Positions 6,591-9,272 of a stretch of 64,000 nucleotides of DNA are shown here, in pieces. The stretch spans positions 2,245,864 to 2,309,863 of the forward strand of contig OY282386.1 of assembly GCA_958295945.1 (NCBI GenBank), read 5' to 3'. Numbering within the stretch: the stretch's first letter is position 1; each line of letters starts with the position of its first letter. The notes under the pieces were generated by a model that worked only from the letters and a program-made list of their open reading frames with translations, was not told the origin of the DNA and ran no database searches. The translations under genes were made by a program, and so were the position numbers. Origin of the DNA: Candidatus Poribacteria bacterium (GTDB lineage Bacteria; Poribacteria; WGA-4E; WGA-3G).

Positions 6591-7325
<735 letters not shown>

Positions 7326-7431
7326 ATATAGCGGATGGGAAATCATAATTTATCCATTTCATTCGGTGTCAAAACCCCGTTGCTTTAGCTCGGGGATGTC
7401 CACACCGCCTTTGTTGTGTCAAGAAAAACAC

Positions 7432-7460
7432 TTGACTTTGTTCAAGAAATATGGTATTCT
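7432..7460 (+). promoter_or_regulatory. sigma70-like promoter inside the IS605-like relic
   Basis: TTGACT at 7432-7437, a 17-base spacer and TATTCT at 7455-7460. It points toward the candidate guide-RNA region and the downstream nucleotidyltransferase gene, so it could drive either. Confidence 0.45.
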
Positions 7461-7777
7461 GTTCCTATCAACTGGATAGGAGAGCAATCGCCTACTTCCT
7501 GTAGGTGTCCTATCCAATCTGATTGCTCAGACAGAGTTGACGTTGATAAACTCAACAATACCACATTCGGTTGTGGACGCTGCAAGTTACGATCCTTGCC
7601 AGTCGTCTGTGATGAGTTCTGCATTCGCTATATAGGATTGTGTAGGTGTTCCCTCCACAACTGCGAAATAAACAGAACGTTGAACATAAAGTATCTGGGT
7701 CGCTCAGTGGGGGATACCTTGTAAGGACCCTGTTAGTCGTGCCGTGGCGGGCACCCCGACAATTGCTGTCTCGGTTA

Positions 7778-7900
7778 ACTTGGCTTAAAACCAAGTGAGT
7801 CTCCTATAAGGAGATAAAAGATGCCCACATCTTCAAAAAACGGAGGTGTCCGTGAGAAGATGACCTAAAGGAAACCCCATCCTTTAGGTTGGGGAGCCGT
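7778..7900 (+). ncRNA. omega-RNA-like scaffold at the right end of the IS605-like relic
   Basis: Consecutive hairpins can be read by eye: ACTTGG/CCAAGT (7778-7796), CTCCT/AGGAG (7801-7813), a stem CATCTTC/GAAGATG (7828-7862) enclosing ACGGA/TCCGT, and the terminal CCCCA/TGGGG stem (7875-7894). TnpB guide RNAs have this position and shape, with the guide taken from the DNA just past the right end. Here that would be the first bases of the adjacent coding region. No partner TnpB is present in the window, so activity is not implied. Confidence 0.45.
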
Positions 7901-7901
7901 C

Positions 7902-9272
7902 ATGAACAATGCTATAGTTTTAGCAGCAGGATTAGGACGAAAAGTGTGGCCCTATGGAGAATTCAGGCAGAAATGCACGATTCCTGTTGCCAATAAACCA
8001 ATTATACGAAGAATTGTTGAAAACCTAATTGAAGTTGGTATCGACAGAATTATCGTAGTTGTCGGACATTATGCTCAGCAAGTCCGTGGTGCTGTTGCTG
8101 ACATTTCAAACATTGAATTTGTCACACAAAATCCTCAAAATGGCACTGCAGATGCTGTTTTAACAGCACTAAATAACCTTAACGGTGACAATTTTTTAGT
8201 GGTATATGGAGATATTGTAACCACATCTGATAATTTACGTAATATCATAGAGGACTTTTATCGTCAGAATGCAGAAGTTGCTGCATTGGTTCAGTTGCTA
8301 AACGATGAGGACGCAAGTAATTGGCTTTGTGCTAAGTTTTCTGATGGATGCCTAAGAGGTATTGAGGGACATCCACGAGGGGGTTCGCATCGTCTATGTG
8401 GGATCTATGCATTTAAATCTACTGCAAAACCTTATTTGTTAAGAAATCCTGGAATCGTCACACAAGTTCCTGTCGGTGGCATGCCACCACCCGAATCCGA
8501 AATTGCTCAATCTATACAACTCATGATTGATGAAGGTATAGATGTATTAGCAGTTGAAACAACAGACTTTTTTGTTGACGTTGACAAACCTTGGCATGTC
8601 TTGGAAGCAAATCGTAGGTTAGTTGATTACCTTTCCAAACAAATTGATGCAGATCAAATTGCCGAAGGTGCGAAAATATCTGATGCAGCTGATATAAACG
8701 GGAATGTTGTTTTAGGTAAAAATACAGTGATTGGTCCACGAGTCGTTGTCAATGGAACACTCGTTGCAGGATCTAATAACAATATCACCAACGGCGCAAT
8801 TGTACACGGTAATATACTGATAGGTAATCAGTGTCGTATCAGTGATTATTGTCATATTGATAGCAGCACTATCGGGAATCGGTGTATCGTTGGACACGGT
8901 GCTGAAATGTCGGGTGTGATGTTTGATAAGGTTTTTCTATATCACTATTGTGAAATGTCTGGCGTTTTTGGGAATGCAACTGATATTGGTGCTGCTACAG
9001 TATGTGGAACACTAAGATTTGATGACCGAGATACAGTAATTCAGATAGAAGATCGTAATGAAGTTCCATCTTATGGGGCAAACGCCACTTACATGGGTGA
9101 TTACTGCAGAACAGGTGTAAATGCAATGATTATGCCTGGCAGATGGATTGGTTCATATAGTGTCATTGGACCAGGAGTGATTCTATATGATGATGTCCCA
9201 AGTAAAACTATGGTGTTAGCAAAACAGGAACTGATTACAAAACCTTGGGGACCAGACAGGTATGGATGGTGA
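7902..9272 (+). CDS. NDP-sugar pyrophosphorylase with left-handed beta-helix domain (GlmU-like)
   Basis: A 456-residue two-domain protein. Residues 1-230 form a nucleotidyltransferase with AAGLGRKVWPYGEFRQKCTI (the G-x-G-x-R/K...K signature) and VVYGDIV (metal-binding aspartate). Residues 255-440 carry hexapeptide repeats of the left-handed beta-helix type. The layout matches GlmU or GDP-mannose/glucose-1-phosphate transferases that supply activated sugars for the cell envelope. No histidine/asparagine acetyltransferase site could be assigned with confidence, so I do not name it glmU. Its upstream region is the right end of the IS605-like relic. Confidence 0.85.
   Translation: MNNAIVLAAGLGRKVWPYGEFRQKCTIPVANKPIIRRIVENLIEVGIDRIIVVVGHYAQQVRGAVADISNIEFVTQNPQNGTADAVLTALNNLNGDNFLVVYGDIVTTSDNLRNIIEDFYRQNAEVAALVQLLNDEDASNWLCAKFSDGCLRGIEGHPRGGSHRLCGIYAFKSTAKPYLLRNPGIVTQVPVGGMPPPESEIAQSIQLMIDEGIDVLAVETTDFFVDVDKPWHVLEANRRLVDYLSKQIDADQIAEGAKISDAADINGNVVLGKNTVIGPRVVVNGTLVAGSNNNITNGAIVHGNILIGNQCRISDYCHIDSSTIGNRCIVGHGAEMSGVMFDKVFLYHYCEMSGVFGNATDIGAATVCGTLRFDDRDTVIQIEDRNEVPSYGANATYMGDYCRTGVNAMIMPGRWIGSYSVIGPGVILYDDVPSKTMVLAKQELITKPWGPDRYGW

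Follow-up and report, generated by a model that had tools for sequence, protein, structure and literature searches.

A PATE-like IS605-type element family in a Candidatus Poribacteria genome that retains an omega-RNA-like scaffold, with one copy in the start codon of a nucleotidyltransferase gene

Palindrome-associated transposable elements (PATEs) of Haloquadratum walsbyi are, like the element described here, multi-copy sequences with near-terminal IS605-type palindromes, no target duplication and no coding gene (PMC3119063). A PATE-like element of Halanaerobium hydrogeniformans likewise combines near-terminal IS605-type palindromes with the lack of both a target duplication and a coding gene (PMC7290912). 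Loss of the core is a known route to PATEs and in some of them has left a remnant of the tnpB 3' part (PMC3119063, PMC7290912), and tnpB 3' sequence is retained in HqIRS71 (Haloquadratum) and the Halanaerobium element, as it is here. The omega-RNA of ISDra2 contains a pseudoknot that involves the final bases of the scaffold and stacks on stem 1, and its right-end stem is closed by a UUUA tetraloop (PMC10097598). Cleavage by TnpB is directed at the empty site, and the motif required is the target motif of TnpA (PMC11870625). This study examined an IS605-type element within a window of 64,000 nucleotides (the whole stretch of DNA analysed) from a Candidatus Poribacteria genome, together with its copies and TnpB-encoding relatives.

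The element occupies positions 7354-7903 (forward strand), spans 550 bp and encodes no protein; based on its copies, their alignment and an empty site in a relative (L150), it is almost certainly a complete non-autonomous IS605-type, PATE-like element. A search of its own genome (5.34 Mb, one contig) with the originally reported stretch recovered 12 more long copies at 82-99% identity to the window copy, and the 13 copies range in length from 542 to 553 bp. When these were oriented and aligned, the common sequence was found to start directly 3' of TTAT, which precedes 13 of 13 copies (7350-7353, forward strand, in the window; the presumed TAM for TnpB), and to finish with GGGGAGCCGTCAT, or GGGAGCCGTCAC in one copy; the terminus is TCAT in 12 of the 13 (7900-7903 in the window) and TCAC in the other. 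The sequence-only reading had placed the borders of the element at 7371-7901 and had described it as a relic. The 13-copy alignment corrects the borders, and the search for other copies with the same ends, which that reading had proposed, delineates a multi-copy family that was apparently active not long ago: three copies are 99-100% identical, which suggests recent movement. A placement shifted by one nucleotide (TTA/T) was considered and is less likely, because the base following TCA is constant within each subfamily, being T in this genome (one C excepted) and in G002, and G in G009, G014 and G033. These four other genomes, which represent two genera, also carry the mini-element family; the loci concerned (L074, L101, L104, L105, L107 and L110) are often situated at contig ends.

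Both ends conform to the IS200/IS605 pattern, with subterminal hairpins, no terminal inverted repeats, and insertion 3' of a fixed tetranucleotide (TTAT) with no target duplication. The left-end hairpin (7364-7407, forward strand) consists of CCCCG..TGCTTTAGC..CGGGG within an outer GGTGT/ACACC stem that shows compensatory changes between copies (CCGCCAC/GTGGCGG in L011), and the right-end hairpin (7875-7894, forward strand), evident from the alignments, consists of CCCC..CCTTTAGG..GGGG with a UUUA tetraloop. The preservation of both ends and a run of hairpins before the right end had been noted from the sequence, and both were found. With IS605-like ends, multiple copies and a length insufficient to encode a transposase, the element matches the description of PATEs; no tnpA is present within its 550 bp, so it is not an autonomous member of the IS200/IS605 family. 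The open reading frames over the element encode 102 aa (forward) and 80 and 60 aa (reverse); that of 102 aa has no Pfam match, and the aligned copies hold indels within its region that would disrupt the frame. The reported absence of tnpB was confirmed. The possible C-terminal trace of the gene corresponds to the overlap of the last tnpB codons with the scaffold described below, with no reading frame kept, and tblastx detected no credible TnpB homology in the middle of the element. The middle third was accordingly rejected as a decayed tnpB, tblastx similarity being confined to the left end and the scaffold. The right end GAGCCGTCA was also considered as part of some TnpB element; among the fetched loci, it was seen only in mini-elements or their contig-end pieces.

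The element separates bioD (dethiobiotin synthase; 6615-7325, forward strand; TIGR00347 above cut-off), whose homologue in relatives borders the empty site immediately on the left, from a sugar nucleotidyltransferase/acyltransferase-like gene (GlmU-like, 456 aa; 7902-9272, forward strand; Pfam NTP_transferase and Hexapep, NCBIfam matches under cut-offs). In a relative with an uninterrupted site, bioD is followed by TTATGAACAAC. Both flanks align in L150 (JAJECK010000119.1), with the bioD gene end on the left and then ..TTATTATGAACAACGCTATAG, and the occupied site in the window reads ..TTTAT, the 550-bp element, and GAACAATGCTATAG; orthologues of the nucleotidyltransferase gene start with TTATG in L150-L154 and L172. 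From the empty-site comparison, the insertion therefore split the start codon between T and G (TTAT/G) with no target duplication, and the ATG was restored by the element's own last bases, the AT of TCAT. This confirms the earlier placement of the junction at the start codon and supports the proposal that the element supplies the leader of the gene: a Shine-Dalgarno-like GGGGAG (7891-7896, forward strand), which doubles as the 3' arm of the right-end hairpin, is positioned 5 nt 5' of the ATG at 7902.

A second copy (junction in L013, G000:C1 about 4332497) likewise splits TTATG and restores ATG, and adjoins an open frame of 651 codons with many hydrophobic stretches, several orthologues of which start with TTATG. 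The remaining four copies with a junction ATG have no long frames (1-2 codons; 95 codons in L012). The mini-elements of G009, G014 and G033 end in TCAG, so rebuilding of an ATG is impossible there. The placement of 2 of 13 copies on start codons may be no more than what would survive selection against harmful insertions.

The last part of the element (7688-7903, forward strand) is an omega-RNA-like scaffold, homologous to the guide scaffold found at the tnpB 3' end of TnpB elements. A covariance model built from 11 tnpB 3' ends alone (those of the L038 TnpB element and its relatives) matched the window at 7688-7852 with 48.7 bits and an E-value of about 1e-12, E-values of this model being rough, and across the genome 13 of 13 copies outranked everything but L038 itself. 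The right end of the model aligned to a hairpin specific to the mini-elements and not to the true right end; the match therefore represents the scaffold core. In the 11 TnpB-element 3' ends, the parts are ordered as AAAGTATC, a GGG/CCC hairpin, GTTAGTCG or GTAGTCGG, and stem 1 with TGGCA in its loop, followed by more hairpins, a right-end hairpin with a TTTA loop and usually TGTCA adjoining the guide, and the mini-elements have the same order. Stem 1 of the window copy (GTGCC/GGCAC; 7739-7754, forward strand) is homologous to GGGAC-CCTGGCA-GTCCC of the TnpB elements and contains in its loop the 5' pseudoknot strand (TGGCG, 7745-7749), with which the 3' strand CGTCA (7898-7902, forward strand), holding the A of the start codon, pairs. 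The right ends differ, being GAGCCGTCAT in mini-elements and GAGTATGTCAA in TnpB elements, and a hairpin at 7828-7862 (CATCTTC/GAAGATG, forward strand), with compensatory changes in two pairs across copies and species, is absent from the TnpB elements. The features expected of an omega-RNA scaffold, namely homology to TnpB-element 3' ends, conservation of the stems and pseudoknot pairing that involves the 3' end, are thus all present. A scan of the window with Rfam returned no family at gathering score; Rfam may have no model for this subtype, and the negative therefore carries little weight. The identification as omega-RNA rests on homology and covariation, and a function as RNA is predicted from these.

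Covariation was evaluated over 23 sequences (12 mini-elements and 11 TnpB elements) with a named structure of 38 pairs, which is 95.6% paired across the set. Double-changed pair cells numbered 134; shuffles averaged 49, and slid controls did not exceed 24. The covariation score was 0.365 versus at most 0.097 for slid structures. Within the mini-elements alone, 64 double-changed cells were counted, against 21 for shuffles and no more than 8 for slid controls, and this covariation takes in the hairpin that TnpB elements lack. In all sequences with letters at these positions, TGGC(A/G) pairs with (T/C)GTCA to form the pseudoknot; one of its pairs is A-U in 11 of 11 TnpB elements and G-C in 12 of 12 mini-elements, a change that may be a single event, as it forms one split between the two groups. 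One pair of stem 1 is U-A in the 12 mini-elements and G-C or G-U in the 11 TnpB elements. Fold z-scores were -3.1 for the scaffold and -4.9 for the whole element. Combined, the 13 copies, the fold z-scores and the double-changed pairs place the observation far beyond chance. The sequence-only reading had proposed an omega-RNA-like scaffold and had named the lack of a conserved fold as grounds to abandon it; the fold is conserved, and the proposal is supported.

A promoter-like TTGACT-17-TATTCT is located at 7432-7460 (forward strand). The motif, TTGAC(T/A) or TTAACT with a 17-nt spacer and TATNNT, occupies the same place in 13 of 13 copies and in the left end of the L038 TnpB element. A blind promoter scan of the region gave hits no more numerous than in shuffles, and the lone motif is not above chance; the case for the promoter that had been suggested at this position therefore rests on the conservation of its hexamers and spacer, with no contribution from the scan.

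The lack of any related full-length element with these ends had been named as counting against the original proposal; such a relative, with an almost identical left end, is present in the same genome. This L038 TnpB element (G000:C1 about 3426199-3427620) follows a TTAT target, is 98.9% identical to the window element over its first 88 nt and encodes a 432-aa TnpB in an open frame (guided_TnpB NF040570, 196.9 bits, cut-off 100), such that a TnpB is available from elsewhere in the genome, as the proposal required. TnpB matches in the genome number 14. L038-type TnpBs retain D-M-G and the final D and have an E located six residues ahead of the first zinc-finger cysteine, which matches the described alternative-glutamate arrangement (PMC10711439); with D, E(alt) and D kept, they do not look nuclease-dead as judged from their sequences. 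For the transposase, no cognate TnpA was found in the genome (assembly 95% complete by estimate). The single good Y1 gene of the genome passes the IS200/IS605 family model and was rejected as the cognate transposase. The mobility of the mini-element today is therefore doubtful, unless a TnpA sits in sequence missing from the assembly, since this one good Y1 protein is only 25% identical to TnpAs with like ends and the palindromes flanking its gene are unrelated. Elements that combine tnpA and tnpB with a like left end occur in relatives; the one in G023, which is autonomous, follows TTAT.

Several related arrangements were observed in the same genome. The only clear Y1 gene, in L045 (G000:C1 1609796-1610140), is flanked by repeated CGCTCCGCTGGAGCG palindromes in a REP-associated-like arrangement. 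Gene-less elements of roughly 180-600 bp share the common left end and have other bodies (L037 2911-3237, L039 3549-3971, L040 3490-3662 and L042 2984-3556); two of them, L037 and L039, have retained the tail of the L054 TnpB element (75% over about 145 nt) and represent a second mini-family with its own scaffold. A lone left end is found in L043 3170-3250 (G000:C1 about 656680-656740), where TTATCCATTTCATTCGGTGTC..GACACCGAATGAAATGGATAA form a perfect long inverted repeat and no right end is present.

The explanation favoured here, and judged probable as a whole with the use of TnpB in trans included, is that of a PATE-type IS605 element that keeps its omega-RNA and is moved, and probably maintained, by proteins acting in trans. 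A TnpA would move the element as single-stranded DNA via both end hairpins and insert it 3' of TTAT, leaving the target unduplicated. The element promoter would then transcribe the body, the last 216 nt of which would fold as a TnpB omega-RNA scaffold with the DNA directly downstream of the insertion as guide. An L038-type TnpB could bind this RNA and cut the empty site (TTAT plus guide) while sparing the occupied site (TCAT plus guide), such that the element would be retained or copied back. Here the element landed in a TTATG start codon, its TCAT end remade the ATG and GGGGAG was supplied, so that the frame survived; the host gene would use a new element-borne leader. This explanation builds on the observed borders, copy number, empty site, scaffold homology, covariation and TnpB gene with nearly the same left end. 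Counted against it are the extra mini-element hairpin, the right ends unlike those of TnpB elements and the missing TnpA partner; the hairpin, which is about 35 nt long and lies between the scaffold and the right end, could make the RNA less usable for TnpB.

A passive deletion derivative would also account for the ends and the 3' scaffold, which would be what was left once the core of a TnpB element had been deleted, with the DNA hairpins alone mattering, for TnpA, and the RNA inert. Such an origin is in line with the core-deletion PATEs with tnpB 3' remnants on record (PMC3119063, PMC7290912) and with the second mini-family, which holds the tail of the L054 TnpB element. However, about 210 nt covary in the mini-elements after tnpB loss, far beyond the terminal hairpin and including the hairpin unique to them, the pseudoknot pairing was maintained through a two-sided change, and the promoter is retained in all copies, making inert RNA unlikely. 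A further possibility, which is not exclusive with the favoured explanation, is leader control in cis, where the fold would hide GGGGAG and the A of the ATG, and folding or TnpB binding would lower translation of the nucleotidyltransferase. The start site directly overlaps conserved pairs of the right-end stem and pseudoknot, and the L013 copy has the same placement on a start codon whose orthologues in several cases start with TTATG; yet this overlap is perhaps a by-product of the landing site, seen in 2 of 13 copies with no sign of selection for placement, and such control is considered very unlikely.

The guide itself bears on whether the RNA of this copy directs TnpB onto a gene in trans, as in TldR-like systems. 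The presumptive guide is flanking sequence whose first base is the G of the ATG (7904-7923, forward strand), placed by analogy with ISDra2 (PMC10097598) and of assumed length; the earlier claim that a guide would begin at the start codon of the gene is supported, with its first base moved from 7901-7902 to 7904. In favour of regulation in trans, the scaffold and promoter are intact and TnpB genes are present in the genome. Against this, the guide is ordinary downstream DNA, as in every TnpB element, and differs in each copy; the site it matches best genome-wide is the junction of this copy itself, with TCAT in place of TTAT, and the next-best matches carry two mismatches within the 18 bases searched. 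TTAT followed by the first 14 guide bases had no full match in the genome, and the combination that defines TldR-type systems, a guide match beside a TAM and a nuclease-dead partner, was not found there, the L038-type TnpBs keeping D, E(alt) and D. This pattern fits TnpB cutting the empty site and sparing the occupied one; the suggested co-option of the guide for regulation in trans gains no support from it and is regarded as extremely improbable. Lastly, a guide-RNA-only transposon family might exploit both TnpB and TnpA in trans, with copies at TTAT/G turning the mRNA leader into an omega-RNA on which TnpB binding excludes translation; this broader proposal is quite unlikely.

Under the favoured explanation, the guide RNA of a TnpB system has been split from the nuclease half and has spread as a separate family, in which compensatory changes kept the pairing after the loss of tnpB. 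A question that thereby becomes testable is whether IS605 elements devoid of genes are maintained with the help of TnpB in trans. The locus also illustrates how a start codon can be interrupted without harm, as the inserted end restores the ATG and comes with a ribosome-binding-like sequence.

Compared with the ISDra2 TnpB omega-RNA (PMC10097598), the common features are a 3'-end scaffold, a pseudoknot of the guide-adjacent 3' end with the stem 1 loop, a right-end stem with a UUUA tetraloop and a guide from flanking DNA. The mini-element differs from ISDra2 in having a scaffold with no intact overlapping tnpB, an extra hairpin before the right end and TTAT in place of TTGAT, and the related TnpB has the alternative glutamate. 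The L038 TnpB element shares the left end (98.9% over 88 nt), the TTAT target and a homologous scaffold, whereas it encodes the 432-aa TnpB, has the right end GAGTATGTCAA and lacks the extra hairpin. Relative to the known PATEs, the Poribacteria element keeps a whole omega-RNA-like scaffold, as shown by covariation and the TnpB-derived covariance model, together with an additional hairpin of its own and a pseudoknot pair preserved by compensatory change. Overall, the element is ordinary in kind, being a PATE, and unusual in what it retains.
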